Assembly (NCBI RefSeq): GCF_035917235.1
Contig: NZ_CP108423.1
Location: 1-64,000, forward strand
Length of the DNA: 64,000 nucleotides
Source: Streptomyces sp. NBC_01294
GTDB lineage: Bacteria > Actinomycetota > Actinomycetes > Streptomycetales > Streptomycetaceae
Reading direction: 5' to 3'
Below, one piece after another: positions 14,225-32,918 of the stretch. Each line of letters opens with the position of its first letter. Position 1 is the stretch's first letter. The translations under genes and the position numbers were made by a program. The notes beneath the pieces are model-generated. The model saw only the letters and a list, made by a program, of their open reading frames with translations, did no database searches and was not told the origin of the DNA.

Positions 14225-14226
14225 CC

Positions 14227-17088: not shown

Positions 17089-17670
17089 ATGACCTCAAGT
17101 GATCATCTGCTTGACCTGATCCGGAACACCCCGGAGATCGATCTGCTGCTGCGGACATCGTTCAGTTTCGACATCGGGCGGAAGTATCACGGCGATGAGT
17201 TGAGGCTTGCCTCGGGTGCGCCGCTGGAGCCAATCGCCGGGGAGTCCGCCGGTGGCGCGTACTTCCTGTGCGCCGAGCAGGACGGCCGCCGACCGCTGGT
17301 GTTCGCGAGTTCCGAAGGGGAAGGCGGACTGATCGCCGACGACCTGGCCGGCGGACTGGAGATCATTATCGGGATGGCATGGCAGGACTGTCTCGGGTTC
17401 TCCGGCGGGGGTGACGTGGAGGTCATGCAGGTCTCTGCCCAGCACCTCGAACGGTCTCTGGCCCGGCACAACCCGGAGATTACCGAGGAACGAGCCCGCG
17501 TGGCTTCAGCCCTGTCACTTCGTGTCGTGCCCATAGCCGACCTCGTCGTCCGACTGCAGGACGCCGCCTCACGGACCGAGCCCGATTACGTGGTGACCTC
17601 CGAGGACGGGCAGGCGTATGACCCACCGTTCGGCGAGTTCTCGGAGCCTCGCCACGGGGGCTGGCGCTGA
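17089..17670 (+). CDS. Hypothetical protein, SUKH/SMI1-like fold possible
   Basis: The protein has 193 residues. ATG 17089 was preferred to 17023, which would add a Cys-rich extension. The acidic core GGAYFLCAEQDGRRPLVFAS and IIIGMAWQDCLGF resembles SMI1/KNR4-type proteins loosely; I cannot assign a family. There is no signal peptide or membrane segment. SUKH-like proteins often act as immunity proteins, but no toxin gene is adjacent. Confidence 0.6.
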   Translation: MTSSDHLLDLIRNTPEIDLLLRTSFSFDIGRKYHGDELRLASGAPLEPIAGESAGGAYFLCAEQDGRRPLVFASSEGEGGLIADDLAGGLEIIIGMAWQDCLGFSGGGDVEVMQVSAQHLERSLARHNPEITEERARVASALSLRVVPIADLVVRLQDAASRTEPDYVVTSEDGQAYDPPFGEFSEPRHGGWR

Positions 17671-17768
17671 AACAACCGAACCCCTTGCTCGCCAGCCGAC
17701 TGACCTTGTTTCCGACGGCTTCTGCGAGCCCACCGTGCGGGATGGCCGGGGCCGGACCGCAGGGAAGG

Positions 17769-18341
17769 TCAGCGGGTGGTGCGGCCGTGGAGCATCAGGG
17801 CGCGGGCGAGGGCGGCCAGGGCCGCCGTGCACAGCACGGTGCGGATGATGTTCGTGGTGACCCAGGTGGTCTTGAACCGCTCCACGATCGCCAAACCGTC
17901 CGCCCCGACGGCGTCGGGGTCCACGCCGGCGAGCTCGTTGTTGAGCGGGATGTTCACGGTGAAGGTGATCACAAGGACCGCGAGGTAGGCCACGGTGGCG
18001 GCACCCACCCACAGGGCGGTGGCCCGCCGGCCTCCGCGATACTCGACAACCACCGACCCGGCGGCCGCCAGCAGGGCCAGCACGAAGACCATGCCGAAGA
18101 GCGGGTTGCCGTCGATGGCCGCGTTGAAGGCACGCATCGCGGCGACGTACACCCGCTCATCACCGGCCGCCAGCCCCGGCATCACCGAGACGTCGAAAGC
18201 AAAGAACAGTCCGGCCATCAAACCCACCAGGACCGTCGAGAGCATCATCAGGACACCGGCAGACCAGGACGCTCGGGGAGCCGACGGGGACGAGGTCGAA
18301 GACGGGGACGGGGACGGGTACGGCGGCGGGCTGGCAGTCAC
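17769..18341 (-). CDS. DUF1772 membrane protein, second copy
   Basis: About 190 residues from a GTG at 18341 (AGGAG upstream); an earlier GTG at 18383 would add 14 residues. A Pro/Ser-rich N-terminus is followed by four hydrophobic segments. The motifs AGLFFAFDVSVMPGL and FTVNIPLNNEL match those of the protein at 12873-13373. Sequence between motifs differs strongly, so these are distant paralogues, not a recent duplication. Function unknown. Confidence 0.85.
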   Translation of the reverse strand: MTASPPPYPSPSPSSTSSPSAPRASWSAGVLMMLSTVLVGLMAGLFFAFDVSVMPGLAAGDERVYVAAMRAFNAAIDGNPLFGMVFVLALLAAAGSVVVEYRGGRRATALWVGAATVAYLAVLVITFTVNIPLNNELAGVDPDAVGADGLAIVERFKTTWVTTNIIRTVLCTAALAALARALMLHGRTTR

Positions 18342-18807
18342 AACGGCTTGTCTCCTCATTCCAACAAACGGCGCACGGTTCACGGTGTGCTCAGAACACC
18401 AACGCCTGATCGTGGCATCACCCGTTCAACATTCCGCCGGATTCAGCCCGCCCCTTGAGCGAATCTTTGCACCATGACAGGCGGCACACCCTGAGGCCGC
18501 GGGATGCCGCCAACACCCACCATCGTGGCGGACGTTGCTCCCTGGCCACTCTGCGGAGCAGCGGCTGCGTCCGGGGCTCTGCCCGGTGTCCTACGCACTT
18601 GTGGGACACGGGCAGGACCGTCCCGGACACAGCCGCGGCTCAGACGGCCGCGGCTGGACCTGACGCGCCCCGCCTCACGCACGACCGTGAGGCCATCGCC
18701 TCCGCCACAGGCGACAGCGCAGGCCTGGGGACGCTTTGCGGCCGGCGTCCAGGCCCCCCGTTCGGGCGGATTTCAGAGGCCGGGCCGCCGGGAGGTCCCG
18801 TGGGACG
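18342..18807. other. Intergenic region
   Basis: No gene recognised between the convergent/divergent neighbours. Short frames lack motifs. Confidence 0.4.
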
Positions 18808-19551
18808 TCAGGCGCGGCAGCGCAGCATCTCCAGCGGGGGGTTGGCGTGGAAGTCCGCCCAGAAGTCCGCACCGAACTCGCGCCCGCCGGCCTCCGACAC
18901 CGTCAGCGGGACCCAGGAAAGCTCGCGGAATCCGGCTGCCCGCAGGCACTTCTCGTAGACCTCGCGGCGCGGGCGGTTGGCAACGAACGAGACCGGCGGG
19001 TCGAGCAGCGCCGTGGTCCGGACCTGCGGTCCGGTCTCGACCTCCTCGCCGGTGAGCTCGCTGCGGAAGCCGTACCTCTCCGGGGTCGGTCCGTCGAAGC
19101 GGAAGTCGGGTGACTGGTTGAGCAGGAAGAACTCGCCGCCGGGCTGCAGGCTCTGGTGCGCGTTGCGGCACATCCGCTCCGTGGTGGCGATGTCCTCGGC
19201 GTAGTTGAGCAGTTGGACCGCCACCCCGACGTCGAAGCGCCGGTCGAGGGGCCGCAGCTCGGCCACGTCACCGACCTCGTAGTGCACACCCAGCGGACTG
19301 TGTTCTTCCAACTGCTGTGCCACGGCGACCATTTCACCGGAGATGTCGATACCGAGCACCTCCGCGGCGCCGCGCCGCTTGAACTCCCTGCTGTAGAAGC
19401 CGGTGCCGGAGGCCAGGTCGAGAACCGACTTGCCGCTCACGTCCCCGACCAGGGCCAGGAAGCTGGGTACCACTGCGTACTGCTCCAGCGGCAGCGCCTT
19501 GAACCCCTCGTACGCCTCACCGATCTCGTCGTACTGCTGCTGTGCGCTCAT
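18808..19551 (-). CDS. Class I SAM-dependent methyltransferase
   Basis: The protein has 247 residues; ATG 19551 has GGGGAGGA twelve bases upstream. SAM-binding motif I is SVLDLASGTGFYSREF, followed by EVLGIDISGEMV, a motif II acidic block (YEVGDVAELRPLDRRFD) and a motif III region (SLQPGGEFFLLNQS). The C-terminal half has substrate-cap features (YEKCLRAAGFRELSW). It resembles ToxA-like small-molecule methyltransferases; the acceptor is unknown. No biosynthetic cluster is next to it. Confidence 0.9.
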   Translation of the reverse strand: MSAQQQYDEIGEAYEGFKALPLEQYAVVPSFLALVGDVSGKSVLDLASGTGFYSREFKRRGAAEVLGIDISGEMVAVAQQLEEHSPLGVHYEVGDVAELRPLDRRFDVGVAVQLLNYAEDIATTERMCRNAHQSLQPGGEFFLLNQSPDFRFDGPTPERYGFRSELTGEEVETGPQVRTTALLDPPVSFVANRPRREVYEKCLRAAGFRELSWVPLTVSEAGGREFGADFWADFHANPPLEMLRCRA

Positions 19552-19810
19552 GGTGATGTCCTCCCCGTTTTCGGTATGTCCTTGGCCACGGCCCCACCCC
19601 TGGGGCACGTGGCGGCTTCTGACTGGCAGTCTCTACGGGTCCCGGCAGACCCTCGTACTGGCAGAAACCACAAAGATCCGAGCTTCATCCCGGCAACGCG
19701 TACGGCGGGCCCACGAGTTCGAGCGGGTGCCGGACTCCCACGGTGCAGCCCCGCCTGACGTCTCCTCAGGACTTGGCGGTGAGGGGGTTTACCGAACGGA
19801 GTCCGGGTTA

Positions 19811-20956
19811 CTGACCTTGAAGTCGTCTTGTCGTAGGGGCTGACGGTTGCTGATTGTCGCGGTATGCCGGGTGTATGAGGTATCCGCAGGGTGGGGGTCT
19901 GACCGCGGAGAGGCAAGCGTTCCGTGAGCGGGTCCGGATGGAAGCGGTCGCGATGTTCGCCGATGGGCGGGGCAGTACGGAGGTCGCGAAGGAGTTACGG
20001 GTCAGCGTGCGATCGGTTCAGCGGTGGCGTCGTGCTTGGCTCGAGGCCGGCCAGAGCGGGGTCCGTTCTCAAGGCCCGGCGTCCCGGCCGAAGCTGAGTG
20101 ACGCGTTGTTCGCCGTGCTCGAGGAGGAGCTGGCGAAGGGTCCGGTCGCGCATGGCTGGTCTGATCAGAGATGGACGCTGGCCAGAATCAAGACGTTGAT
20201 CGGCTGGCGGTTCCACAAGTCCATGACGCTTTCGGGTATCTCGCAGATGCTGCGGAGGCACGGCTGGAGCCATCAGGTTCCGGCTCGTCGGGCCGTCGAG
20301 CGTGACGAGCCGGCGGTGGCCGGCTGGGTGAAGGACGTGTGGTCGCACGTGGAACCACCGCGGCGGCGCTCGGGGCCTGGATCGTCTTCGAAGACGAAGC
20401 CGGATTCTCGATGACGCCGCCGACCTCCCGCACCTGGGCCCGACGCGGAACCACACCGGTCATCCGGGTCCGTGGACGATCCCAGCGTCGCTTCTCCATC
20501 GCAGCCCTGTGCTGCTACAAACCCGGCGAACGCTCCCGCCTCGTCTACCGGCCCAAACGGCATACCGATCACAAGAGCGGAGGCCGCAAGAGCTTTGCCT
20601 GGACCGAGTACCGCGACCTTCTCATCGCCGCCCACCAGCAGCTCGGCGGACCGATCGTCCTCGTATGGGACAACCTCAACGTCCACAAAGACCGCCGCAT
20701 GCGGGCCTTCATCGAGGAGCACGACTGGATCACCGCCTACCATCTGCCGCCCTACGCACCCGACCTCAACCCTGTCGAAGGCATATGGTCCATCCTCCGC
20801 AGGACCAGCCAGGCGAACACCGTCTTCACCGACCCCGACCACCTCATGCGCCGGCTACGACACGGCCTACGCCAGATCCAATACCGCAGCGACATCATCG
20901 ACGGATGTCTCACCGGCACCGGACTCACCCTGACGACACCACGACTACAAGGTCAG
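19811..20956 (+). mobile_element. IS630-family insertion sequence
   Basis: The 1146-bp element is flanked by TA dinucleotides (19809-19810 and 20957-20958), the duplication typical of IS630/Tc1. The ends are inverted: CTGACCTTGAAGTCGT at the left and CTGACCTTGTAGTCGT as the complement of the right. It carries one transposase in two overlapping frames. Confidence 0.9.
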
Positions 20957-20959
20957 TAG
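19875..20959 (+). pseudogene. IS630-family transposase in two frames
   Basis: The first frame (from ATG 19875) has the N-terminal helix-turn-helix (STEVAKELRVSVRSVQRWRR) and winged helix (GISQMLRRHGWSHQVP). The second frame has the DDE core: AWIVFEDEAGFSM (first Asp), PIVLVWDNLNVHKD (second Asp) and PPYAPDLNPVEGIWSIL (Glu). The change of frame falls near 20350-20365 and needs -1 slippage or one base. Programmed -1 frameshifting occurs in some IS630 elements, but no canonical slippery site is visible, so an indel is as likely. The TAG stop uses the duplicated TA. Confidence 0.85.
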
Positions 20960-21352
20960 ACGCGTGGATACCGGAAGCGAACACCACGCGGGTGGGCGCC
21001 TCCGGAGCGGGTCCCGGCCGCATGACGACCTCTCCCCCGGCGTCATGCGGCAGGCCCGCCCGCACGACGGGCTGCCGCCTGGATCCGTACGGCACCCGGG
21101 CGGCCCCACACCCCGGCCACCCCTCCCCGGCCGGAATGCGGAGCCGCCCGGCAATCCCCCGGCGCCGGCGCTCAGACCGCCGCCCCCGGGCAACGGACCC
21201 CGACGGCAGCAGCCCGGCGCACACCCGACAGCCGCCCCTCGCCCGTTCGGCTGTCCCCGCTCACAAGGCCCTTTCTTGCTCCCCCTCTCACGGGGCCTGG
21301 TCCATTCCGTCCGCATCGCTGAGGCCACGCCATGTGAGAGAGCGCTCCGTTA
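20960..21352. other. Intergenic region after the IS630 element
   Basis: Pro/Gly-rich frames on both strands but no recognisable gene. Confidence 0.4.
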
Positions 21353-21526
21353 GTGGCAAAGGCGAACCTCCTGCAACTGACGAACATTCAGGGCTCGGTC
21401 GTTCTCCGGCTCCCGCTGGACGTCTCCCAGGCGCCGGTCGCCCGCGACCACGTCCGTGGAACGTGGTTCCTCAACCTGTTCTACGTTGGGCGGTACTACT
21501 ACAACAGAGACGGGCTGGCGAAATGA
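21353..21526 (+). CDS. Small hypothetical ORF, 57 residues
   Basis: A GTG-initiated frame of 57 codons has strongly G/C-biased third positions (about 85 percent) and protein-like content (VVLRLPLDVSQAPVARDH, GTWFLNLFYVGRYYYN). An ATGA overlap at its stop opens a 7-codon frame that itself ends in GTGA at the start of the next gene, suggesting translational coupling. I recognise no family. It could be the tail of a longer lost gene cut by the nearby IS630 element. Confidence 0.4.
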   Translation: MAKANLLQLTNIQGSVVLRLPLDVSQAPVARDHVRGTWFLNLFYVGRYYYNRDGLAK

Positions 21527-21542
21527 GTGAGGTCGTTGCTCC

Positions 21543-22067
21543 GTGAACCGTACGGATTCCGCCATGCGCGGTCGGACGACGGTACTCGTCGGCGCGGCAT
21601 GCGCCGTGGCATTCGCCCTGGTCGGCGGTCTGCTGTACGGGGCCGCCACGCTGTTGATCGGCGCCGACGGGCAGTGTGACGAGCCCAGGGGCGTGAAGCG
21701 CCTGGCACAGGTCTCGGCCATCGCCGTTCCGCCGGCGCCGGCCGGGGCGGCCCCCGTCCCGGGCGCGAGCGGCGCCGAGTGCATGGACGACAGCGGCACC
21801 GAGGTCTGGCTGGTCGCCAACACGTACTACACCTACGACGGCGATCCCAACAAGGTGATCGACCACTACTGGGCCGCCGCTCCTGCCGCGGGCTGGAAGG
21901 CCACCGGGTCACGCCCGAAAATCACTCCCGGCTCCCTGCCCAAGGACATGTGCTTCCACAAGGAAGTGGACGGGAAACCGACGCTCCTCAGCGTCTTGTA
22001 CTCCGCGGACAAGGAGTACTTCGTGTCCGTGAACGCGATCCTCGACGGATCCCGTCCCGACTGCTGA
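21543..22067 (+). CDS. Hypothetical membrane-anchored secreted protein
   Basis: The protein has 174 residues and a GTG start. One hydrophobic segment (about residues 12-38, TTVLVGAACAVAFALVGGLL) acts as signal anchor. The outer part has four cysteines (QCDEPRG, ECMDDSG, DMCFHKE, RPDC) likely forming two disulfides, and a conserved-looking block VWLVANTYYTYDGDPNKVID. The family is common in Streptomyces as an uncharacterised exported protein. A 15-bp-stem hairpin follows the stop. Confidence 0.75.
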   Translation: MNRTDSAMRGRTTVLVGAACAVAFALVGGLLYGAATLLIGADGQCDEPRGVKRLAQVSAIAVPPAPAGAAPVPGASGAECMDDSGTEVWLVANTYYTYDGDPNKVIDHYWAAAPAAGWKATGSRPKITPGSLPKDMCFHKEVDGKPTLLSVLYSADKEYFVSVNAILDGSRPDC

Positions 22068-22089
22068 ACCGGCCGCTGGTCGGCATGGG

Positions 22090-22123
22090 GTGCCCTCCGG
22101 GTCCGTACGGACCCGGAGGGCAC
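22090..22123. terminator. Strong hairpin terminator
   Basis: Perfect 15-base arms (GTGCCCTCCGGGTCC and complement) with a GTAC loop, 22 bases after the preceding stop. Confidence 0.75.
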
Positions 22124-22186
22124 CCTTCGTCATTCCGGCTGCGGCAGGCACGTGCTCCGCATGCTGCTCGACTCCGGACGCCGGCT

Positions 22187-22218
22187 CGTCGGTCCGTCGG
22201 TCCGCCGGTCCGCCGGCG
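22187..22218. repeat. 8-bp tandem repeat, 4 units
   Basis: Units CGTCGGTC x2, CGCCGGTC, CGCCGGCG. The CGCCGGTC unit is a rotation of the unit repeated at 53651-53698. Confidence 0.85.
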
Positions 22219-22392
22219 GCCACGATGTTGATATCTCTCTCTCCCGGACCCGTTCTGACCCGACGCTCACGCCCACGGGGCCCGGGACCTGCGGTTTCTT
22301 TGTGGACGGGTGGGTCCGCTCTGCCGTAGTTTCCCTCTGCGCGCTCATCCCCGGGCGCCTTCATTCCGTGCCCGTGGGGGGTCCACACCATC

Positions 22393-23088
22393 ATGTCCTC
22401 GTCCCGTTCCGGCGTTCTCCGTCCCCGCCCGCCCCTGGCCGCCCCGGCCTCCGGCCCCGGCCGCGGCCTGCTCACGGGGGTGTGCGCCCTGCTGTCGGCA
22501 GCCGCGGCAGGCGATCTCTTCTCCCTGTACGCCGGTGTTCGGGCGCACTCCGCGGTGGAGGGGGACGGGGAGTTCGCCTTCGTCTCCGAGGACCGGTGGG
22601 CGGCTCTGGAGATGCTCTTCTTCAGGGTGAACCAGGTGCAGGTGCTGGCCTTCGTGGCCTGCGCGGCCGTCTTCATCACCTGGTTCCACCAGGTCCGGCG
22701 GCGCGCCGGAGCGCTGGAGCCCGCCGGGTTCAGGAGCGGGCCGGGCTGGGCTGTCGGGGCCTGGTTCGTTCCGGTGGCCTGTTTCTGGCTGCCGTACCGG
22801 ATCGCCGTCCAGGCCTGGACGGCCGGCCTGCGGGGCGCCAAGGGGGCCTTCTGGCCGGTGAACCTCTGGTGGGCGTCGTTCGCCGGCTCGGTCCTGCTGG
22901 GCCAGTACGCGAGCCTGCGCTATCGGCGGGCCGAGGACCTCGGGGCCTTCGTCGACGCGGTGACCCTGGGCATGGTGGCCGACGCCCTGAACATCGTCGC
23001 GGCGGGCGCGGCCGTGTACTTCGCCGTGCGCCTGACCCGCATGCTGGCGCCCGGAAGCAACCCGGCCCAGCCGCCCCTCAACGCCTGA
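22393..23088 (+). CDS. DUF4328 membrane protein
   Basis: The protein has 231 residues, with six predicted membrane segments after a Pro-rich N-terminus. DUF4328 hallmarks are visible: VLAFVACAAVFITWFHQVRR, GWAVGAWFVPVACFWLPYRI and LWWASFAGSVLLGQYASLRY. Function unknown; widespread in Streptomyces. It lies alone between a repeat-rich leader and a 250-bp gap. Confidence 0.88.
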   Translation: MSSSRSGVLRPRPPLAAPASGPGRGLLTGVCALLSAAAAGDLFSLYAGVRAHSAVEGDGEFAFVSEDRWAALEMLFFRVNQVQVLAFVACAAVFITWFHQVRRRAGALEPAGFRSGPGWAVGAWFVPVACFWLPYRIAVQAWTAGLRGAKGAFWPVNLWWASFAGSVLLGQYASLRYRRAEDLGAFVDAVTLGMVADALNIVAAGAAVYFAVRLTRMLAPGSNPAQPPLNA

Positions 23089-23321
23089 CCCACCTCCGCA
23101 ACCCCGCCCGTGGCGCGCGTGTGCGCGGGGGCGCCTCAGCCAGGGGCGTCCTCACCGGGGCGCCCTCGCCCGGGTGTTCTGGCAGGCCGTCAGCAGCCGG
23201 CGCCCGTCCGCATGAAATCGGCCGTCGCCTCGCCGGACGGTCCCCGTGCCGCCCCCGTGACGCCCCCGTTCAGCGTCCCTGGATCCGGCCCTGGTCGCTC
23301 AACCTTGGTCGAGGTCAAGCG

Positions 23322-23333
23322 ATATGATCATAT
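23322..23333. promoter_or_regulatory. AT-rich 12-bp palindrome before the flavoprotein gene
   Basis: ATATGATCATAT ends 6 bases before the ATG at 23340. Such an AT-rich palindrome is rare in this GC-rich window and probably overlaps the -10 region or binds a GntR-type repressor. The regulator is not identifiable here. Confidence 0.5.
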
Positions 23334-23339
23334 GGTGGC

Positions 23340-23885
23340 ATGACCACGAGGACTCTCTACCTGCTCTGCTCCGCCGCCCCACCTGTCTTCGACGTCGCCC
23401 ACGTCATCGAAGACGCCCAGGCCCGCGGCTGGGACGTATGCCTGGGCCTCACCCCCACCGCCGCCCACTGGCTCACGGGCAGCCTCGACGGACTCGCCGC
23501 ACTCACCGGGCACCCCGTGTGCTGGCAGTACAAACTCCCCGGCGAACCGGACGTCTGGCCCGAGGCCGACGCACTCCTCTTCGCCCCCGCCACGTTCAAC
23601 ACCATCAACGCCTGGGCTCTCGGCCTCACCCACAACTACGCCATCGGCCTCGCCGCCGAAGCCGCCGGCAAAAGCATCCCCACCATCGCCATGCCCTGCC
23701 TCGACACCGCCCTCGCCGCGCACCCCCAACTCGAAACCTCCCTCGCCACCCTGCGCACCGCCGGCGTCGAACTCCTCTACGGCGAAAACGGCTTCGCCCC
23801 CCACCGGCCCGGCTCGGACACCGTTCCCCACTACCCCTGGCACACCGCCCTCAACGCCATCAACCAGACCACGGCCCACCGCTGA
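23340..23885 (+). CDS. Flavoprotein, HFCD (PPC decarboxylase-like) family
   Basis: This 181-residue Rossmann-like flavoprotein (PF02441 type) begins LYLLCSAAPPVFDVAHVIED. FMN-binding features include the PTAAHWL turn after the second strand and ALLFAPATFNTINAWALGLT, which matches the PASANT-like motif region of phosphopantothenoylcysteine decarboxylase and lantibiotic decarboxylases. The natural substrate is unknown. The start codon lies just after an AT-rich palindrome, so transcription may be nearly leaderless and repressed at that site. Confidence 0.85.
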   Translation: MTTRTLYLLCSAAPPVFDVAHVIEDAQARGWDVCLGLTPTAAHWLTGSLDGLAALTGHPVCWQYKLPGEPDVWPEADALLFAPATFNTINAWALGLTHNYAIGLAAEAAGKSIPTIAMPCLDTALAAHPQLETSLATLRTAGVELLYGENGFAPHRPGSDTVPHYPWHTALNAINQTTAHR

Positions 23886-24026
23886 ACCGCCCCAAGCCGA
23901 CACGAGACGTCGCAGTTCTCCACGCCGGACCGCAGTCGCGACGTGGGAGGAGATCGACACCCGCCCCGCCCCGACCCGCCCCCGATCGGTCCGCCCGGAG
24001 CACGGGCCGGTGGGCATACTGCTTGC

Positions 24027-24923
24027 ATGGGCCAGTGGACGGCAGTCGTCACCGGTGCCCGTGCCCGGCTGGGCGAGGCGCTCTTCCTGCGTGTGGCGGG
24101 GCCATCGGGCCCGGCCAACCGGAACCGGATCCACCTCACGCCCGGTCCACGCTGGTTCGGGCCGGACCACCCGGTGCGGCGGGTCCACGGCGACGCCGCC
24201 CTCTTCGTCGGCGGGATCAGCGCCCTGCTTCTGCAGTCCCTGCATCCGCTGGCCATGGCCGCCGTGGCCCAGCACTCCGCGTACCGGGAAGATCCCTGGG
24301 GCAGGCTCCAGAGCATCAGCACCTTCCTCGCCTTCACCACCTTCGGTACGGCGGACGACGCGCAAGGGGCGGTCGACCGGGTCATCGCGGTGCACAGGAC
24401 GATCAGCGGGCGGGCACCCGGAGGGGAGCCGTACACGGCCACCGACCCGGCCCTCCTGGAATGGGTGCACGACGCCGAGCTGACCTGCTTCCTCCGCTCC
24501 CAGCAGCACTACGGTGCCCACCCGCTGAGCCCCCCGGACCAGGACGCGTACGTGGCGGGCATGGCGCGGGTCGGCGCGGCACTCGGCGTCACCGACCCGC
24601 CACGCACCGCCGCGGGGCTCGCCGCCCGCATCGAGGCCTACCGGCCACAGCTGCGCGGCACCCCCGAGGCCCGGGAAGCCGCCCACTTCATCCTCCGCCG
24701 CCCGCCCCTGCCGTGGGCGCTGCGCCTGCCGTACGCCGCCCTGGCCGCGGGTGCGGTCGTACTGCTGCCGGACTGGGCCCGCGTCGAGCTGGGGCTGCAC
24801 CGGCGGCTGCCGCTGGAGCGGTGGTGGGTCGGCCCCGCGGCCCGCGCGGCGGTCTGGCTGGTCCGGTGGTCCCTGCCTCCGGCGCCGGTGCCGGCCCGCG
24901 CCGCTGCCCCGCCGGCCCCCTGA
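24027..24923 (+). CDS. DUF2236 / MpaB-type oxygenase-like protein
   Basis: The protein has 298 residues. The family block is visible: VRRVHGDAALFVGGISALLL, QSLHPLAMAAVAQHSAYRED, PWGRLQSISTFLAFTTFGTA, WVHDAELTCFLRSQQHYG. DUF2236 includes heme-dependent MpaB-like oxygenases and latex oxygenase Lcp; His residues in SLHPLA and WVHDAE are candidate heme ligands. The C-terminal third is hydrophobic and Pro/Ala-rich (about residues 230-250 could insert in the membrane). The next gene encodes an ADF/cofilin homologue, and a P450 gene follows. Confidence 0.87.
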   Translation: MGQWTAVVTGARARLGEALFLRVAGPSGPANRNRIHLTPGPRWFGPDHPVRRVHGDAALFVGGISALLLQSLHPLAMAAVAQHSAYREDPWGRLQSISTFLAFTTFGTADDAQGAVDRVIAVHRTISGRAPGGEPYTATDPALLEWVHDAELTCFLRSQQHYGAHPLSPPDQDAYVAGMARVGAALGVTDPPRTAAGLAARIEAYRPQLRGTPEAREAAHFILRRPPLPWALRLPYAALAAGAVVLLPDWARVELGLHRRLPLERWWVGPAARAAVWLVRWSLPPAPVPARAAAPPAP

Positions 24924-24984
24924 CACGCGGCGGCGGGGGTTTCGCCGGGCCGGAAGGCGGGCAGCCGCCACGACGGGGGCTCGA

Positions 24985-25032
24985 CACTGCGCTGCACCGA
25001 ACCGAACCGCACTGCACCGCACTGCACTGCCA
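24985..25032. repeat. Degenerate CTGCAC/GAACC repeats before the cofilin-like gene
   Basis: Imperfect short units (CACCGAACCGAACC, CTGCACCGCACTGCACTGCC) fill the spacer immediately upstream of the ribosome-binding site. Confidence 0.5.
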
Positions 25033-25053
25033 CCTGAACGATCGGAGATCGCC

Positions 25054-25461
25054 GTGAGCAGCTCGGGCACCACCGTGGACGACAGCTGCCTGGACGCCTT
25101 GCAGGAGCTGAAGAGCAGACGGGAGATCAACACGGTCGTCTACCGGCTGGACGAGCCCCTGGCGACGGTGGTCGTCGAAAGCAAGTCCAACCTCACGCAC
25201 GAGGAGATGCTGGAGTCGCTACCCGCGAACGAGCCCAGATTCGTCCTGTACGACCTGCATTTCGCCGCGGCGGACGGGGCCCGCAGGAGGGATCTCGTGA
25301 TGATCTTCTGGATCCCCGACGGGGCGCTGCCCGCGCACAAGCTCGCCTACGCCTCCACCCACCGCGTCCTGCGGGATGCCCTCGACGGCATCCAGGTCGA
25401 CGTCCGGGCCACGACCCTGTCCGCCCTGGCCTACGACGAGCTCGCCTCCCAGGCGGTCTGA
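25054..25461 (+). CDS. Actin-depolymerising factor / cofilin homologue (ADF-H domain)
   Basis: The protein is 135 residues, the size of a single ADF-H domain. The GTG start has GGAG six bases upstream. It can be aligned by eye over its full length with eukaryotic cofilin: N-terminal SSSGTTVDDSCLDALQELK (cofilin SxSGVxVxDEx...F..LK), central LESLPANEPRFVLYDLHF, the actin-binding helix region FWIPDGALPAHKLAYASTHR (cofilin WSPDTAPVRSKMxYASSK) and the tail VLRDALDGIQVDVRATTLSA. Cofilins bind and sever actin filaments at the cell cortex. In a bacterium the target could be MreB/ParM-type filaments or a host's actin; that is inference. Codon use looks like its neighbours, so any transfer is old. It sits 130 bp after the DUF2236 gene and 57 bp before a P450 gene, possibly co-transcribed. 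Confidence 0.88.
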   Translation: MSSSGTTVDDSCLDALQELKSRREINTVVYRLDEPLATVVVESKSNLTHEEMLESLPANEPRFVLYDLHFAAADGARRRDLVMIFWIPDGALPAHKLAYASTHRVLRDALDGIQVDVRATTLSALAYDELASQAV

Positions 25462-25518
25462 CGGACGGGATCGGCGACCGCCCCTGTTTGCGGTCCCCCG
25501 ATCGGGTAGGTGCAGACC

Positions 25519-26823
25519 ATGTCCGCTCTATTGACCGACAGCACCCTGTCCCTGTTGCTCCACGGCTACGCATGGGCCCCCGACCTGCGCCGGGCCCATG
25601 ACGGAGCACCCGTGGTGCCCACCCACCTGTTCGGCCGTCCTGCGGCACTTCTGCACGGGCCCGAGGCCGTCGACCTCTTCTACGACGAGAGTCGCGTCCA
25701 GCGGCACGATGCCCTCCCGGCGCCGGTGCTCGACACCCTCTTCGGCAAGGGCGCGGTGCACAGCCTGGACGGGCCACGGCACCGGGTACGCAAGGAACTG
25801 TTCACCTCCCTGCTCATGTCCCCGGGCGCCATCAGTGCCCTGACCGAGAGCTTCGAGGGCGGCTGGCGCGATGCCGTGACGGCCTGGGAAGGCCGCCGGG
25901 TGGTCCTCTTCGACGAGGTGGCCACACTGCTCACACGGGCGGTCTGCGACTGGGTGGGGCTGCCCGTCACGGACGACGCGGCCCGGGAGATCGGTGAGGA
26001 CTGCGTCTCCATGGTCGACGGCTTCGCCGCCGCCGGACCCGGGCGGCTGCGGGCCCGACACGCCCGGCACCGTCAGGAGCGGGCCCTCGCGGCCGCCATC
26101 GCCGACCTCCGCAGGAGCGGACCGCACCCGGACGGTGTCTTCTCCCCCTCCCAGCGCACGTCGGTGCCCGGGAGCCCTCTGGAGGCCGTCGCACTGCATC
26201 GCGAGCAGGACGGCACTCTGCTGGACCCGCACACGGCGGCCGTCGAACTGCTGAACATCATCCGTCCCACCGTCGCCATCGCCTGGTTCGCCGTCTTCGC
26301 CGCCCACGCCCTCCACCGGCAGCCGGGCGGGCTTGACCAGCTCCGGGACGGTGGCCCGGCCCACGCCCGTGCGTTCGCGCACGAGGTCCGCCGGTTCTAC
26401 CCGTTCGTGCCCTTCATCGGAGGCGCCGCCGTGCACGATCTCAGCCTCTCCGGTCACCAGATCGCGGGCGGGACCCTCCTGCTTCTCGACGTGTACGGGC
26501 ACCACCACGACCCGGAGCTCTGGGAACGGCCGTACCACTTCGACGCCGGACGCTTCCTCGGACACGAGCCGGGCCGTGACGCACTGATCCCGCAGGGCGG
26601 AGGCGACGCACGCACCGGTCACCGCTGCCCGGGCGAGGACCTCACCCTTTCCCTGCTCGCCGCGCTCTCGCCCGCCCTGGCGGATCTCGACTTCGCCGTG
26701 CCCCGGCAGGACCTGTCCATCCCCCTGAGCCGGATCCCGACCCGGCCCCGCAGCGGATTCGTCATCGACGTCGCAGGCCGGCCGGGGAGCCGCCGCGCCC
26801 GGGGGTTCCAACCCCCCGTGTGA
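25519..26823 (+). CDS. Cytochrome P450, CYP152-type fatty-acid peroxygenase
   Basis: The protein has 434 residues; the start ATG has GGTAGGTG upstream. The heme-binding loop IPQGGGDARTGHRCPGE places the axial Cys at residue 370. The QGGGD form and the I-helix motif NIIRPTVAIAWF with Arg249, in place of the usual acid-alcohol pair, are signatures of CYP152 peroxygenases, which use hydrogen peroxide to hydroxylate or decarboxylate fatty acids without redox partners. EVRRFYPFVPFIGG matches the family K-helix. Redox partner genes are absent, in agreement. It may share a transcript with the cofilin-like gene. Confidence 0.92.
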   Translation: MSALLTDSTLSLLLHGYAWAPDLRRAHDGAPVVPTHLFGRPAALLHGPEAVDLFYDESRVQRHDALPAPVLDTLFGKGAVHSLDGPRHRVRKELFTSLLMSPGAISALTESFEGGWRDAVTAWEGRRVVLFDEVATLLTRAVCDWVGLPVTDDAAREIGEDCVSMVDGFAAAGPGRLRARHARHRQERALAAAIADLRRSGPHPDGVFSPSQRTSVPGSPLEAVALHREQDGTLLDPHTAAVELLNIIRPTVAIAWFAVFAAHALHRQPGGLDQLRDGGPAHARAFAHEVRRFYPFVPFIGGAAVHDLSLSGHQIAGGTLLLLDVYGHHHDPELWERPYHFDAGRFLGHEPGRDALIPQGGGDARTGHRCPGEDLTLSLLAALSPALADLDFAVPRQDLSIPLSRIPTRPRSGFVIDVAGRPGSRRARGFQPPV

Positions 26824-26917
26824 ACGCGGCGAAGGCGCCAGACTGATCACGCCTACCCCCCACCGGGGTGGGTAGCCGCCCGCCAGGGGCCGCTTCCAGC
26901 AGCGCGAGGAGCCTTCC

Positions 26918-27340
26918 ATGACCCGACGTGTGCACGAGGTGATGACCGAGAATCCGGTGACGGTCGACAAGCTCACGTCGCTGGCGGAAGCGGCGCGGGT
27001 GATGCGCGATGCCGACATCGGGGACGTCCTCGTCGTCGACGAAGGCCGCCTGCGCGGCATCCTCACCGACCGGGACCTGGTCGTCCGTGCCATGGCCGAG
27101 AACAGGGATCCCGCCGAGACGACCGTGCAGGCCATCTGCAGCAGTGAGCCGGTCACTGTCCGTCCCAGCGACGACGTCATCCACGCCGTCACCCTCATGC
27201 GCCGGAACGCGCTGCGGCGCCTGCCCGTGGAAACCGAGGACGGCGAGCTCGTCGGCGTCGTCACCCTGGGCGACCTCGCGGTCGAACAGGACCCGGGGTC
27301 GGCCCTCGCCGCGATCGCGGCAGCGGAACCCGGCACCTGA
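26918..27340 (+). CDS. CBS-domain pair protein
   Basis: The 140-residue protein consists of two CBS motifs: residues 7-60 (VMTENPVTVDKLTSLAEAAR ... ILTDRDLVVRAM) and 75-128 (CSSEPVTVRPSDDVIHAVTL ... VVTLGDLAVEQ). Stand-alone CBS pairs bind adenine nucleotides and act as energy or stress sensors; in Streptomyces many belong to the SigB regulon. The partner is unknown. A hairpin follows at 27403-27427. Confidence 0.92.
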   Translation: MTRRVHEVMTENPVTVDKLTSLAEAARVMRDADIGDVLVVDEGRLRGILTDRDLVVRAMAENRDPAETTVQAICSSEPVTVRPSDDVIHAVTLMRRNALRRLPVETEDGELVGVVTLGDLAVEQDPGSALAAIAAAEPGT

Positions 27341-27402
27341 CGAGCCCGTTCGGCACCTGAACCTGAGGACCCCGCCGGCGGACGGGTGCGCCCATCCGGG
27401 GC

Positions 27403-27427
27403 GGGACCGGCGTGTGGCGCCGGTCCC
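27403..27427. terminator. Hairpin after the CBS gene
   Basis: Perfect 10-base arms (GGGACCGGCG and complement) with a 5-base loop, 63 bases after the stop. Confidence 0.65.
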
Positions 27428-27521
27428 GGTCCGCCCCGTGGCCGTAGGTTTCGCAGCGGGAAGTGCCCGGCCGGGTACGGAACGTGCTGAGGGACAGGGA
27501 CACAGGAAGGGGGTACCGGCG

Positions 27522-28469
27522 ATGACCGAGCAGCGGACCGTCACCGTATTCGGCGCGACGGGACATCAGGGAGGCTCGTTCGTACGGGCCGCCCTCGCGG
27601 ACCGGGACAGCGGCTTCGCGGTGCGCGCGGTGACCCGTCGGCCGGACTCGGACGCGGCCAAGGAGCTGGAACGGCTCGGGGCCGAGGTGGTCCGGGCCGA
27701 TCTCGACGACGAGGACAGCCTGGTCGCGGCGTTCGAAGGCGCGTACGGGGCGTTCCTGGTGACCAACTTCTGGGAGGACATGGACGCCGCGCACGAGAAG
27801 GCGCAGGCGGCGGCCCTGTCCCGGGCGGCGTCGCACGCGGGTGTGCAGCACGCCATCTGGTCCACCCTGGAGGACACCCGCGAGTGCATTCCGCTGGACG
27901 ACGACCGGATGCCCACGCTCCAGGGCTCGTACAAGGTCCCGCACTTCGACGGCAAGGCCGAGGCCGACCAGTACTTCACGGACGACGGCGTGCCGACCAC
28001 CTTCCTGCGCACCACCTTCTTCTGGGAAAACCTGTTCGGCGCGTTCGCCCCGCAGCGCGCCGAGGACGGGACGTTCGAGCTGAACTTCCCCATGGGCGAC
28101 AAGAGGCTCTCCGGAATCGGCGTCGACGACGTCGGCAGGACCGCGCTCGCCATCCTCAAGCGCGGCACCGACTTCATCCCCGCCACCGTCAGCATCGCGG
28201 GCCAACACCTGCCCCTCGCGGACATGGCCGCAGCGCTCTCCAAGGAGCTCGGACAGCCCGTGCGCTACCGGCCCCTGACACCGGACGCGTTCCGCGCGCT
28301 CGGCTTCCCGGGCGCCGACGAGGCGGGCAACATGTTCCAGTTCTACGCCGACTGCGAGGCCCGCTTCACGGGCGCCCGCGACCTCGACGCCGTGCGCGCC
28401 CTCAACCCGGCCCTCCAGGACTTCTCCACGTGGCTGGCCGCACACCGCGACAAGTTCCACTGGAGCTGA
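27522..28469 (+). CDS. NmrA/HSCARG-family NAD(P)-binding protein
   Basis: The protein has 315 residues. The Rossmann motif VTVFGATGHQGGSFVRAAL is at the N-terminus, followed by VRAVTRRPDS and AEVVRADLDDEDSLVAAFEG. Family blocks GAFLVTNFWEDMD, HAIWSTLEDTR and FLRTTFFWENLFGAF match NmrA-like/HSCARG redox sensors, which bind NADPH in an atypical SDR fold lacking the catalytic Tyr-x-x-x-Lys. Either a redox-sensing regulator or an isoflavone-reductase-like enzyme is possible. Monocistronic, with GGAAGGGG upstream. Confidence 0.9.
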   Translation: MTEQRTVTVFGATGHQGGSFVRAALADRDSGFAVRAVTRRPDSDAAKELERLGAEVVRADLDDEDSLVAAFEGAYGAFLVTNFWEDMDAAHEKAQAAALSRAASHAGVQHAIWSTLEDTRECIPLDDDRMPTLQGSYKVPHFDGKAEADQYFTDDGVPTTFLRTTFFWENLFGAFAPQRAEDGTFELNFPMGDKRLSGIGVDDVGRTALAILKRGTDFIPATVSIAGQHLPLADMAAALSKELGQPVRYRPLTPDAFRALGFPGADEAGNMFQFYADCEARFTGARDLDAVRALNPALQDFSTWLAAHRDKFHWS

Positions 28470-28557
28470 GAACCGAGAACTGAGCCCCAAGGCCGAAAGC
28501 TGTTACCCCGTCAGGCATGGATGCAGGCAGGCAGGCGGCGGGTCGTAGCGTGGCCCC

Positions 28558-29763
28558 ATGAAGACGATCCCGGTGTCCTGGACCTCCGCGAGCGCCCGCC
28601 GGATGGAGCGGCAAGGGCTCCTCACCCCTGCCACCACCGCCGAGACCCCGCCCGCCGACATCGCCGGGCGGATGCTCGGGGCGCACGCGCAGGTGGCGTC
28701 GGCGGCGGAGCTCTCCATCGCGCTCCGGTTGGACGGCGCGACGCGCACGGACGTACGCGACGCCCTGACCGGCGGACAGGAACCCGCACGAGGCAGGGGC
28801 CAGGCACCGCGACCGGAACCGGAACCGGGCACGCTGGTCAAGACCTTCGGGCCGCGCGGCACCATCCATCTGCTGCCCGCACAGGATCTGCCCTGGTGGA
28901 CCGGGGCCCTCTCCGCCCTCCCCACGCTCCCCAGCCCCTTCCGCCCGGAGGCCCGGATGACGGCCGCCCAGACGGACGAGGTGATCGCCGCGATCGGCGA
29001 CGCGCTGACCGACGCCGAACTGACGGTGGACGAGCTCACCGAGGCGATCGTGGAGCGGACCGGACCCTGGGCCGCCGACCCGGTCATGCCCGCCTTCCAG
29101 ACCATGTGGCCGCGCTGGCGGCAGGCCACGCACGCCGCCGCCCATCACGGAGTGCTGGCGTTCGGCCGAGACCGGGGGCGCAAGGTCACGTACACCAACC
29201 CCCGCTGCACCCCCGCCTCCCCCACGCGGTCGCTGCACGAGCTGGTGAACCGCTATCTGCGCGCCTACGGGCCCGCCACCGCCGACGACTTCGCCACCTG
29301 GCTCGCCGCCCCCAAGGCCTGGGCCGCCGAGCTCTTCGCCTCCCTCGCGCAGAAGGGGAGCATCGAGGAGGTGGCCTTCGCGTCCGGCCGGGCATGGCTC
29401 GCCGCCGGCGACACGGTCTTCCCGGACGAACCCGCGCGCGGCCTGCGCCTGCTGCCGTACTTCGACGCGTACGTCGTCGCCGGCCGCCCCCGCGAACTGC
29501 TCTTCCCCGGCGCTGCGGCCACCCGCGCCCTGGCCGGCGGCCAGGCCGGCAACTACCCGGTCCTGCTGGTCGACGGCACGGTCGCCGGCGTCTGGCACCA
29601 GCGCCGTACAGGCCGGCGCATCGCGTTCACCGTGGAGCCGGTGGGACGGCTGAGCGCGGCCCACCGCCGCACGCTGGACGAACAGGTGGAGCGTACGGGC
29701 GCGATGCTCGAGGGAACTCCGGAGCTCACCCTGGGCAAGGTCACCGTAGGCCCCCACGCCTGA
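28558..29763 (+). CDS. Winged-helix DNA-binding domain protein (HTH_42 family)
   Basis: The protein has 401 residues. It belongs to the HTH_42 (formerly DUF1006) family related to the AlkX/YcaQ DNA glycosylases, which unhook interstrand crosslinks. Visible blocks: RMLGAHAQVASAAELSIALR, TLVKTFGPRGTIHLLPAQDL, RYLRAYGPATADDFATWL, LRLLPYFDAYVVAGRPRELL, VLLVDGTVAGVWHQRRTG. The QxQ-type catalytic motif of YcaQ is not obvious, so a glycosylase role is uncertain. A low-complexity stretch (RGRGQAPRPEPEPG) interrupts the first domain. Confidence 0.88.
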   Translation: MKTIPVSWTSASARRMERQGLLTPATTAETPPADIAGRMLGAHAQVASAAELSIALRLDGATRTDVRDALTGGQEPARGRGQAPRPEPEPGTLVKTFGPRGTIHLLPAQDLPWWTGALSALPTLPSPFRPEARMTAAQTDEVIAAIGDALTDAELTVDELTEAIVERTGPWAADPVMPAFQTMWPRWRQATHAAAHHGVLAFGRDRGRKVTYTNPRCTPASPTRSLHELVNRYLRAYGPATADDFATWLAAPKAWAAELFASLAQKGSIEEVAFASGRAWLAAGDTVFPDEPARGLRLLPYFDAYVVAGRPRELLFPGAAATRALAGGQAGNYPVLLVDGTVAGVWHQRRTGRRIAFTVEPVGRLSAAHRRTLDEQVERTGAMLEGTPELTLGKVTVGPHA

Positions 29764-29919
29764 CCCGCGTATCGCCGCGCCCCGATCGTGCCGTTCCGCG
29801 CATGGCACTCCGTCCATGGCGCTCCGTCGGCGCAGCCTGGCCGGCGGCATCCGGGGCCGTGCCCGCCGGAGGGGCCATGCCCACGGCGTGGCGAGGTCGG
29901 GGCGCTTGGGCGCTGGGTC

Positions 29920-31392
29920 ATGATCGGCTGCGTGAAGACTTCCGGACGTCTGGCCGCCCTCACGGTCGCGGGCCTGCTCGCCGCACTCCCCGCGTGCTCG
30001 GAGTCCGACGGCCGTGGCGGCGGGACGGGGGCTCGTACCGGCGTGGACACCGCTCGGGCGGGGGCTGCCGGAGCGGTGTTCCGGGGCGGCCGCCCCGCTG
30101 CCGCAGGCGCCGGTGACCCGTACTTCCCGGAGCTCGGCAACGGCGGCTACGACGTCACCCACTACGCCCTGACTCTGGCCTACGACCCCGGCAGCGGCCG
30201 CCTCGAGGGCACTGCGGAGATCACCGCGAAGGCGACCGCGGACCTCAGCGCCTTCAATCTCGACCTCCTCGGCATGGAGGTGCAGAGCGCCACCGTCGAC
30301 GGCCACAAGGCGCGGGTTCGGCACGACGGGCAGGAGCTGACCCTGCAGCCGCGCGATCACCTCAGGAAGGGCGCCGCCTTCCGCACCGTCGTGCGGTACG
30401 CGGGCACGCCGGAGTCGATCACCCATGACCACGGGTGGCGCGAAGGCTGGTTGAGGACGGACAACGGAGCGGTCGCGTTCGGTGAGCCGACGGGCTCGAT
30501 GTCCTGGTTCCCGGGCAACCATCACCCCTCGGACAAGGCCTCGTACGACATCACCGTCACGGTCCCCAAGGGGGTGCAGGCGATCTCCAACGGGCTGCTG
30601 CGCGCCCGGCGCACCAGCGGCGACCGCGCCACCTTCCACTGGCACCAGGCCGAGCCCATGGCCAGCCATGTGGCGACCGTGGCCATCGGCAGCTACGACA
30701 TCAGGACCTCCCGGACCCGATCGGGCGTCCCGGTCGTGTCGGCGTTGGACACGACCGCGAGCGTGGACGAGGACGGAGCGGTACTCGGCCGGTTCCCCGA
30801 GATCATGGAATGGGCCGAGGGGAGGTTCGGTCCCTACCCCTTCTCCGCCGCCGGGGTGATCGTCGATCAGGCGGCCGATGTGCCCTACGCCCTGGAGACC
30901 CAGACCAGGCCGACCATTCCGGCCGGCATCTTCCACACCACCAACGTGGTGCACGAACTGTCCCACCAGTGGTTCGGCAACTCCGTCACCCCGCGGACCT
31001 GGCGGGACATGTGGCTCAACGAGGGCTTCGCGACCTATGCGGAGTGGCTGTGGACCGAGGACCACGGTGGGGCCAGCGCCCAGGATCACTTCGACCGCAA
31101 CCACGCCAAGGCCGCGGACGACGACGAGTGGGACTTCCCGCCCGCCGAGCCGCCGAGCGCCTCGGACATCTCCGGCCAGCCGGTGTACGTGCGCGGCGCG
31201 ATGGTGATCCACAAGATCCGCCAGGCCGTGGGCGACGAGGACTTCCGTACCCTGGTGCGGGGCTGGACCCTGCGCCACCGCCACGGCCACGCCTCCACGG
31301 CAGACTTCACCGCGTACGTGGAGGCCGAGGCCGGCCGGGACCTCGACTCGATCTGGGACTCGTGGCTCTACGGCGACGGCAAGCCCGCGTGA
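29920..31392 (+). CDS. M1-family metallopeptidase, lipoprotein
   Basis: The protein has 490 residues; GTG 29932 is an alternative start. The N-terminus is a lipoprotein signal ending in LLAALPACS, so the enzyme is membrane-tethered outside the cell. The zinc site is HELSH (His345, Glu346, His349) with Glu368 in NEGFATYAEW, exactly the HExxH-x18-E spacing of M1 aminopeptidases. YALETQTRPT replaces the GAMEN exopeptidase loop, as in the bacterial M1 subgroup with short C-termini. The N-terminal beta domain (HYALTLAYDPGSGRLEGTAE) is present; the long helical C-domain is absent, typical of this subgroup. Confidence 0.92.
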   Translation: MIGCVKTSGRLAALTVAGLLAALPACSESDGRGGGTGARTGVDTARAGAAGAVFRGGRPAAAGAGDPYFPELGNGGYDVTHYALTLAYDPGSGRLEGTAEITAKATADLSAFNLDLLGMEVQSATVDGHKARVRHDGQELTLQPRDHLRKGAAFRTVVRYAGTPESITHDHGWREGWLRTDNGAVAFGEPTGSMSWFPGNHHPSDKASYDITVTVPKGVQAISNGLLRARRTSGDRATFHWHQAEPMASHVATVAIGSYDIRTSRTRSGVPVVSALDTTASVDEDGAVLGRFPEIMEWAEGRFGPYPFSAAGVIVDQAADVPYALETQTRPTIPAGIFHTTNVVHELSHQWFGNSVTPRTWRDMWLNEGFATYAEWLWTEDHGGASAQDHFDRNHAKAADDDEWDFPPAEPPSASDISGQPVYVRGAMVIHKIRQAVGDEDFRTLVRGWTLRHRHGHASTADFTAYVEAEAGRDLDSIWDSWLYGDGKPA

Positions 31393-31408
31393 TGGGGTCG
31401 ACGCGGTG

Positions 31409-32110
31409 TCAGGTCCTGATGCGCCGGCGGGCGGTCTCGACGAGCTTCATGTACTTGTCCCAGTCCCACGCGGTCCCGGGGTCGTCGTGAGTGGACAGCG
31501 GGACCTCGACGTGGCCCAGAATGTGGTCCCGGTCGACCGGCACGTCGTACTTCGCGCAGATCGTGGCCGTGAGCACGGCGGATGCCTCGTACATCTCGTC
31601 GGTGTAGACGGGCTGATCGGTCCAGCCTTCGTGCTCGATGCCGATGCTCCGGTAGTTGTACCAAACGCTGCCGGAGTGCCAGGCCACGTCGCGCTCGCGC
31701 ACGCACTGGGCGATCCGCCTGCCGGTCGCGCTGATCATGTAGTGCGCGGACACCCTCTCGGCGGGGTCGTTGAACTTGGCGAACATGATCGGCAAGATGT
31801 CCGTCGTCAGGTGAATGACGACGTATTCGATGGGGTACGCCTCGGGACGGTCGGAGGGCGAGTAGTTGGACTCGGAGGCTTCGACCCAGACGGCGGGGGC
31901 GTAGTCCACCGAGGGGTCCGTTCGCAGGGGCGCAGGCGGTCCGGCGGCGGCGACGGGAGCCTTGGCCTTGCGCACGGGTCTCGGCAGCGCAGCTTTCGCC
32001 TTCTCCTCGGGCCTCATCAGCTGGGGCAGCCCGACAGCGGCCAGAGCCGTGCCCGCCGCGCCGGCAGCACCCCACAACAGCCGTCGACGGCTCAGCGGGC
32101 TGTCTTCCAT
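31409..32110 (-). CDS. Tat-exported N-acetylmuramoyl-L-alanine amidase (amidase_2)
   Basis: The protein has 233 residues; ATG 32110 has AGGAG at optimal spacing and is preferred to GTG 32116. The N-terminus carries a twin-arginine signal (SRRRLLWGAAGAAGTALAAV). The amidase_2 domain follows: IEYVVIHLTTD (first zinc His), VSAHYMISATGRRIAQCVRE, VAWHSGSVWYNYRSIGIEHE, ILGHVEVPLSTHDDPG (His and Asp of the zinc site). It should cleave the amide between muramic acid and the stem peptide in the cell wall. It is convergent with the M1 peptidase gene and divergent from the secreted-protein gene. Confidence 0.92.
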   Translation of the reverse strand: MEDSPLSRRRLLWGAAGAAGTALAAVGLPQLMRPEEKAKAALPRPVRKAKAPVAAAGPPAPLRTDPSVDYAPAVWVEASESNYSPSDRPEAYPIEYVVIHLTTDILPIMFAKFNDPAERVSAHYMISATGRRIAQCVRERDVAWHSGSVWYNYRSIGIEHEGWTDQPVYTDEMYEASAVLTATICAKYDVPVDRDHILGHVEVPLSTHDDPGTAWDWDKYMKLVETARRRIRT

Positions 32111-32416
32111 GGCCACTCCTCATGAGGTCGAGCAGGCAGGCAGAGGACGACGCGCCGCGAATCGTGACATCACGATAGATAGGCGACACATCACTTAATC
32201 TGATGCTTCACCAGGGCCCGCACCCCAGCAAGCCGGTCCTCCACCACTCGGCGCACACCCTCACCCCTGACCGGGCAGCATAAGAGGTCGGGCGCACGGG
32301 CCCCCTGCCCCCATCTGCACCCATTTGGGCGAAAACTCGATCAGACCCTGCCCATCGAGCCGAACGCGAGCCATGGTCTGTCCAGAGAAGACAGGCTCGA
32401 CGAAGGGTACGGAACG

Positions 32417-32869
32417 TTGAATTTGAGGCGCACCGGAACGATCCTGGGCGGAGCCGCGCTGGCCGTGCTGACCCTCCCGGCCAACGCTCACGCTGCAGCC
32501 GTCGCTTGTGGCGGAGGTGTGTCGACCGGCCGTGTCGCCATCAACGGCTGCATCAGTGCCGAGCGGGGATCCGCCGGCAGATTCCCCACCCGAGAGATCA
32601 CGGCACACATCAAGGCGCGCAACACCGGCACCAAGGCGGTGAATGTCTCGTACGAGGCGTTCTTCCGTGTGGTCGACGGTGGTCACTGGGTGAAAGTGGG
32701 CAGCGGTCGCGCCTACGTCCGGGCCGGCGAGGCCATCGGACCTGTCGAAGTGGGAAGCACGACCCGGGTATGCGGCCCCGTAAAGGTCGAGATCCGCGTA
32801 CATGCTCGGGCCGACGGCGCTGCCTGGAGCGGCTGGTCTCCCGCAGCCACGAAGCAATGCCAGACCTGA
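32417..32869 (+). CDS. Small secreted protein of unknown function
   Basis: The 150-residue frame starts at TTG 32417 (TTG 32423 also possible). The Sec signal is RRTGTILGGAALAVLTLPAN with cleavage near AHA-AA. The mature part has four cysteines (VACGGG, NGCISA, RVCGPV, KQCQT) and predicted beta strands (TAHIKARNTGTKAVNVSYEA), suggesting a disulfide-stabilised beta sandwich. Family not recognised. It is followed immediately by an 8-bp tandem repeat array. Confidence 0.75.
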   Translation: MNLRRTGTILGGAALAVLTLPANAHAAAVACGGGVSTGRVAINGCISAERGSAGRFPTREITAHIKARNTGTKAVNVSYEAFFRVVDGGHWVKVGSGRAYVRAGEAIGPVEVGSTTRVCGPVKVEIRVHARADGAAWSGWSPAATKQCQT

Positions 32870-32870
32870 G

Positions 32871-32918
32871 CTTCTGCGCTCCTGCGCTCCTGCGCTCCTG
32901 CGCTCCTGCGCTCCTGCG
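32871..32918. repeat. 8-bp tandem repeat, 6 units (CTCCTGCG)
   Basis: One CTTCTGCG and five perfect CTCCTGCG units start right after the stop codon of the secreted-protein gene, in the 95-bp gap to the convergent PAP2 gene. Confidence 0.92.

Follow-up and report, generated by a model that had tools for sequence, protein, structure and literature searches.

The gene considered here lies in the first 64,000 nucleotides of the chromosome of Streptomyces sp. NBC_01294 (contig NZ_CP108423.1), a stretch referred to below as the window, and encodes a protein of the ADF/cofilin family; its position, together with those of its neighbours and of the segments discussed below, is given in Table 1. The first-pass annotation, made from the sequence alone, had placed the gene between an oxygenase gene and a CYP152 P450 gene, and this proved correct, with an open reading frame (ORF) matching PF09995 upstream and a CYP152-like P450 downstream. 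Over 64 kb the whole window matches, at 99.84% identity, the opposite chromosome end in reverse complement, so that the chromosome has a terminal inverted repeat of at least 64 kb, of which the window is one arm. The ADF gene is therefore present twice in the genome, with matches at 25087 and 8201389 of the chromosome (C1, length 8226482).

Table 1. Features around the ADF gene, in positions of the window; groups B and C are those of the streptomycete ADF family introduced in the text.
Feature	Position	Strand	Remark
ADF-H (cofilin-fold) protein, group B of the streptomycete ADF family	25054..25461	+	135 aa, GTG start
Ribosome-binding sequence GGAG	25044..25047	+	read directly from the sequence
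Codons 23-27 (R-E-I-N-T)	25120..25134	+	near-invariant in groups B and C
Codons 46-51 (N-L-T-H-E-E)	25189..25206	+	near-invariant in groups B and C
Codons 94-97 (A-H-K-L)	25333..25344	+	equivalent of the yeast R96-S97-K98-M99 G/F-actin site; K98 alone kept
MpaB/latex-clearing-type oxygenase ORF	23943..24923	+	PF09995; upstream neighbour of ADF
P450, CYP152 (fatty-acid peroxygenase) type	25510..26823	+	downstream neighbour of ADF
CBS-pair protein	26918..27340	+	second gene downstream of ADF
Terminal inverted repeat	1..64000	.	whole window, repeated inverted at the other chromosome end

That the product is an ADF/cofilin homologue, as had been proposed, is confirmed, and both homology and fold are supported: the profile check against PF00241 gave 92.9 bits against a cut-off of 22.4 and covered domain positions 1-124 of 125, and the protein has the ADF-H fold. 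In sequence searches cofilins proper score above GMF and twinfilin, and the ADF-H domains of twinfilin, coactosin, GMF and drebrin are 13-25% identical to the window protein. With eukaryotic ADF/cofilins such as yeast Cof1, actophorin and Arabidopsis ADF1 it shares the whole domain, the fold, W86, P88, L56-P57 and the YD motif, but differs from them in that most basic residues of the G/F- and F-actin sites are replaced, that it carries new positions (R23-N26-T27 and an NLTH-E motif), and that no eukaryotic-type actin was found in the cells encoding streptomycete ADFs. Serine stands at residue 4, a candidate for the regulatory N-terminal serine, but five close relatives have P, R, R, W and S there.

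The ADFs of streptomycetes split into three groups, termed A, B and C, with the window gene in B. In a tree built from 71 rows chosen by hand, B and C are united in a clade (support 100/100) outside the Agaricomycete (mushroom) cofilins and group A nests among the latter, most inner forks in the fungal part of the tree being unresolved. One group A member (L003/L022, genome G299) is 64-68% identical to the cofilins of Lyophyllum, Termitomyces and Asterophora, and among the best 120 of 214 matches in a group A search 20 are named Streptomyces, Embleya or Kitasatospora, with one further name cut off. A single clade for group A is not rejected (p value of the approximately unbiased test, p-AU, 0.164, or 0.108 with L004), and since L004 (G251) branches separately from the remaining group A rows a further capture is possible. 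A single origin of all bacterial ADFs was rejected weakly (p-AU 0.045), for groups that had been named after inspection of the sequences. The simplest reading is that at least two captures from eukaryotes took place, one of them from mushrooms. The B/C stem measures 0.99 changes per site, with few outgroups, and for this clade transfer from a eukaryotic donor into streptomycetes is presumed. The window protein shows the features of the B/C family as defined in the present analysis, namely R23, N26, T27, NLTH-E, A71, G75 and R77 besides clade membership. PDB 5ivu, a Streptomyces griseoflavus cofilin according to its entry title, is 33% identical to the window protein and groups with the fungal and group A sequences, the window protein falling into the other clade; the open-licence PMC literature yielded no paper on this entry and, among the matches listed, none on streptomycete cofilins. 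The proteins that NCBI names 'actin-binding ADF family protein' or 'cofilin family protein' of Streptomyces belong to the same families, and the former name asserts actin binding although groups B and C have lost most of the contacts. Two group B proteins (L028 and L032, 172 and 174 aa) carry a C-terminal tail of about 35-40 residues that appears by eye to be of low complexity.

A WxPDxAPxxxKxxYAS region had been read as actin-contacting by the first-pass annotation, a reading that is not supported for this protein by comparison with yeast cofilin, in which the G/F site consists of R96 and K98 and the F site of R80, K82, R135 and R138 according to PMC3541276. In yeast numbering, used here for all contact sites, the window residues A94-H95-K96-L97 correspond to R96-S97-K98-M99, and the window protein has R96 replaced by Ala, K82 by Asp, M99 by Leu, R110 by Asp and R135 by Gln, shows a gap at 138, and keeps K98, R80 and R109. 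One of the two G/F-site residues (R/K96 and K98) and one of the four F-site residues (now R, D, Q and a gap) are thus retained, which sets the protein apart from ADF/cofilins proper. At positions 96, 98, 110 and 135 a basic residue is present in 18/18 fungal sequences each, in 20, 24, 25 and 23 of 25 group A rows, in 4, 17, 1 and 6 of 30 group B rows and in 3, 0, 1 and 0 of 100 group C rows, respectively, so that group A keeps most actin contacts. Position 80 is kept in 19/30 group B and 100/100 group C rows and position 109 in 21/30 and 98/100, and group C shows charge reversal, with an acidic residue at 98 in 100/100 rows and mostly also at 82 and 110. Measured in bits, contact sites vary much less than the remaining positions in the eukaryote set (0.42 vs 1.10) and much more in group B (1.82 vs 1.05). 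The eukaryote set (n=103) comprises 18 named fungi, 4 others and 81 remaining search matches; the last include unnamed metagenome proteins, which may belong to bacterial group A. These values rest on a wider list of sites that includes positions picked from recall; a narrower list (80, 82, 96, 98, 99, 109, 110 and 135, of which we take 109 and 110 to be actin-contact sites) gave the same picture, 0.6% of random sets being equally variable in group B. The yeast site residues are reportedly owed to Lappalainen et al. in 1997.

Groups B and C have near-invariant positions of their own. R23 occurs in 30/30 group B and 100/100 group C rows, N26 in 83% and all, and T27 in 93% and 97%, at positions where the eukaryote set has mostly K, K and Y, while N46, L47, T48, H49 and E51 reach 93-100% in B and C, unlike in group A and the eukaryote set. 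The loop before strand 1, with R23, N26 and T27, and the start of helix 2, with N46-L47-T48-H49 and E51, may together make up a new face, and these positions would then form a single binding site. Since the fold is kept and much of the actin-binding face has been rewritten, the window protein probably does something else now, and the function implied by the cofilin name is probably wrong for this gene. We favour, with a little better than even confidence, the reading that the gene is a eukaryote-derived ADF which was captured by a streptomycete ancestor, lost much of its actin surface and was repurposed for a non-actin partner. Under this reading, an ancestor of the streptomycetes would have acquired an ADF/cofilin from a eukaryote, much of the canonical actin-binding surface would subsequently have been lost, and the present product, a small and probably cytosolic protein with an intact ADF-H fold, would serve as a module that binds some streptomycete partner, presumably neither an actin nor MreB.

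The rarity ascribed to bacterial cofilins holds across the phylum, where ADF-H genes were found in 1 of 396 sampled genomes, the window's own; it does not hold within Streptomyces, where they form a recurrent family (18/392 genomes) with NCBI names and one crystal structure. At the level of the order, 21/391 genomes carry such genes, confined to 2 of 10 genera. When the genome_contigs collection (described as holding 84,980 species) was scanned for a motif, 37 pattern matches came up, 23 of them confirmed and every one titled Streptomyces; a protein search gave 12 ADF matches. An alignment search for B/C-type proteins, with scoring limited to the 8000 best candidates, returned 241 proteins at E<=0.001, and among the best 120 of these all rows bearing an organism name are Streptomyces. 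An rpoB tree was built for 60 selected genomes (the 18 ADF genomes, 14 ADF-negative ones with the MreB paralogue discussed below and 28 double negatives, picked roughly in handle order with G001 and G008 skipped). It requires 10 changes of the label 'no ADF', and well-supported branches force at least 8 of these; the ADF gene comes and goes among Streptomyces.

An ADF fold acting on an actin fold would be the least inventive new role, and the captured ADF might accordingly regulate the turnover of filaments of MreB, Mbl or another MreB-family protein in hyphae or spores, a possibility we regard as unlikely. The PF00022 scan found no eukaryotic-type actin in any of the 18 ADF genomes; all 18 have PF00022 matches, which are weak (45.5 bits for the best, L065), none scoring like eukaryotic actin, and which are read as MreB-family proteins, only L065 having been checked as MreB/Mbl (449 bits to PF06723). 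A second, stronger match is in excess in ADF genomes (10/18 vs 14/94 without ADF; Fisher p 5e-4 before tree correction), a count in which the presence of G024, G046 and G025-G036 in the sample is deduced from handle numbering, genomes without a match being mostly absent from the listing. Over all ADF types, however, the association vanishes on the rpoB tree, with 0.8 pairs in the same direction and 2.8 in the opposite one, of 10 independent pairs, and a general co-occurrence is not supported; group C alone leans towards association (1.6 independent pairs with and 0.1 against, of 5), a sample too small to test. Moreover, the window's genome has no PF00022 match at E<=1e-8, and its presence in about 5% of species is too sparse for the ADF to be a core MreB factor. 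In G042, a second MreB/Mbl-family gene (L065, 997-2106) lies about 3.5 kb from the other PF00022 match, which is probably mreB, and such paired MreB-family genes recur in several relatives.

It is more doubtful still that the ADF, once released, acts on actin in amoebae, fungi or plants. The family stems from eukaryotes, some streptomycetes also possess profilin, and the actin contacts retained by group A, together with the likeness of one of its members to mushroom cofilins, indicate that at least group A proteins could bind eukaryotic actin. The window protein, however, shows no signal peptide by eye and no longer has R96, K82, M99, R110, R135 and R138, several contact charges are reversed in group C, and no known delivery part was found among the window neighbours tested, no search having been aimed at delivery systems; such a role is a better fit for group A than for the window protein. 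Least probable of all is that the transferred gene is drifting without function, as might be suggested by its patchy presence, the fast change at former contact sites, the truncated relative L011 in G078 (left out of all protein alignments) and dN/dS values of 0.62-1.09 in three window-subgroup pairs and 0.95 in one group A pair. Against drift stand the 241 proteins found, the best 120 of which cover 92-100% of the query, the intact ORFs, sixteen positions that do not vary among 24 diverse rows of B and C, and dN/dS values of 0.15-0.56 in ten other ADF pairs, these being inflated by bias in GC content at third codon positions (GC3). Comparison genes gave 0.34 for the P450 neighbour in the same pair in which ADF gave 0.62, 0.57 for a CutA pair and 0.26-0.29 for methyltransferase pairs, and all such ratios have low power because GC3 is near saturation.

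A repurposed cofilin is thus the best reading, ranked ahead of an MreB-family regulator, an agent acting on eukaryotic actin and a drifting gene, yet several observations weigh against it. With K98, R80 and R109 retained and a face of net positive charge, the window protein may, to judge from its sequence, still bind actin weakly. Its subgroup is uniform at R80, D82, A96, K98 and D110 (6/6 rows), and the interface could therefore have been altered instead of lost. Contact sites and other positions vary about equally in group C (0.79 vs 0.89, p 0.83), whose face is partly rewritten and afterwards kept, with a basic residue at 80 in 100/100 and at 109 in 98/100 rows. Nor does group A show any excess of conservation at its contact sites (0.85 vs 0.84 for the remaining positions). 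Finally, tight constraint is not demonstrated by the window-type dN/dS of 0.62-1.09, a range inflated by GC3.

Apart from cofilin, profilin (PF00235) was found in 7/392 Streptomyces genomes (L162-L168 in G112, G208, G046, G385, G039, G188 and G191), which suggests a second actin-binding protein captured by streptomycetes, although contamination is possible for G112 because its assembly is fragmented. Six of the seven were rescanned and all match PF00235, at 123 down to 47 bits, ranging from a near-eukaryotic form (123 bits) to a diverged one with a shared LLHG motif, so that profilin and ADF alike occur in streptomycetes in a near-eukaryotic and a diverged form. Two of the seven profilin genomes are also ADF genomes (Fisher p 0.037, without tree correction). 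We consider it an even call whether eukaryotic actin-binding proteins were captured repeatedly, cofilin probably at least twice and profilin as well, with one cofilin lineage, now a large family of bacterial proteins, neofunctionalised for a bacterial partner. Cofilin and profilin together suggest that cytoskeletal genes have been passing from fungi or other eukaryotes to streptomycetes; if the reading is true, a cytoskeletal regulator was neofunctionalised in cells without eukaryotic actin. The streptomycete ADFs amount to a natural experiment, in which the same fold exists with most actin contacts (group A) and without them (groups B and C) and relatives lack the gene, and they make it testable which parts of cofilin are required for actin and to what other uses an ADF-H domain can be put. 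For groups B and C the label 'actin-binding ADF family protein' may misguide.

Neighbours and a shared upstream element hint at a possible stress-response role for part of group B, the element being absent at the window gene. The element, GAAC-N14-18-CGTTG at -65 to -70, precedes 8/15 group B genes, 0/16 of group C and 0/3 of group A, and resembles what we take to be an ECF sigma promoter; the window ADF gene has a GCACTGCACCG-type repeat in its stead. These counts must be taken with caution, since the pattern was devised post hoc from the sequences, which makes the Markov control (mean 0.04 of 15) too kind. A stricter GAAC-CGTTG form matched 9 times in 5 genomes, including once at the ADF gene itself, vs 2 for the reversed control, and no regulon follows from it. 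A GGGTA hexamer, presumably a SigB-type promoter element, was found in only 1 of 35 ADF upstream regions of 160 bases each. Among 71 proteins beside group B genes (7 of 77 candidates left out, one CBS protein added) the recurring families are DUF2267 (3), CBS, HSP20, hemerythrin and PRC (2 each), and among 82 further proteins beside B/C genes (17 of 99 left out) SpoIIE (3), STAS and PRC (2 each). A control of 98 proteins (9 of 107 left out) from 20 arm regions of 5 genomes showed equal recurrence of SpoIIE (3) and HATPase_c_2 (2), among the first 25 families listed; the recurrence of stress-type families beside B/C genes is therefore suggestive only, the control not being clean enough for a claim of enrichment. 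A few group C loci share CutA1, a methyltransferase and a small protein resembling, by eye, an AMPK-type carbohydrate-binding domain.

At the window locus, genes for an NmrA-like protein, an AlkZ-like glycosylase and an M1 peptidase follow the CBS-pair protein. The ADF of Streptomyces sp. NRRL F-2580 (L043) is likewise flanked by the oxygenase and the P450, the DNA on its upstream side resembling the window oxygenase ORF. In strain APSN-46.1 (L042) the window DNA matches at 24901-24978, 25022-25499 (the ADF gene) and 27330-28471 and nowhere else, DNA similar to the window P450 and to most of the oxygenase not being found there. Short GCACTGCACCG/GAACCGAACC repeats stand directly 5' of the window ADF gene, at about 24984-25035. 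An IS630-type transposase lies 4 kb upstream of the gene, and at 19854-20959 it consists of two overlapping frames (HTH, then DDE_3), as if made by frameshifting. Near the group A genes L023 and L025, transposase-like ORFs were noted by eye, an IstA/IstB-like pair and an IS5-like ORF.
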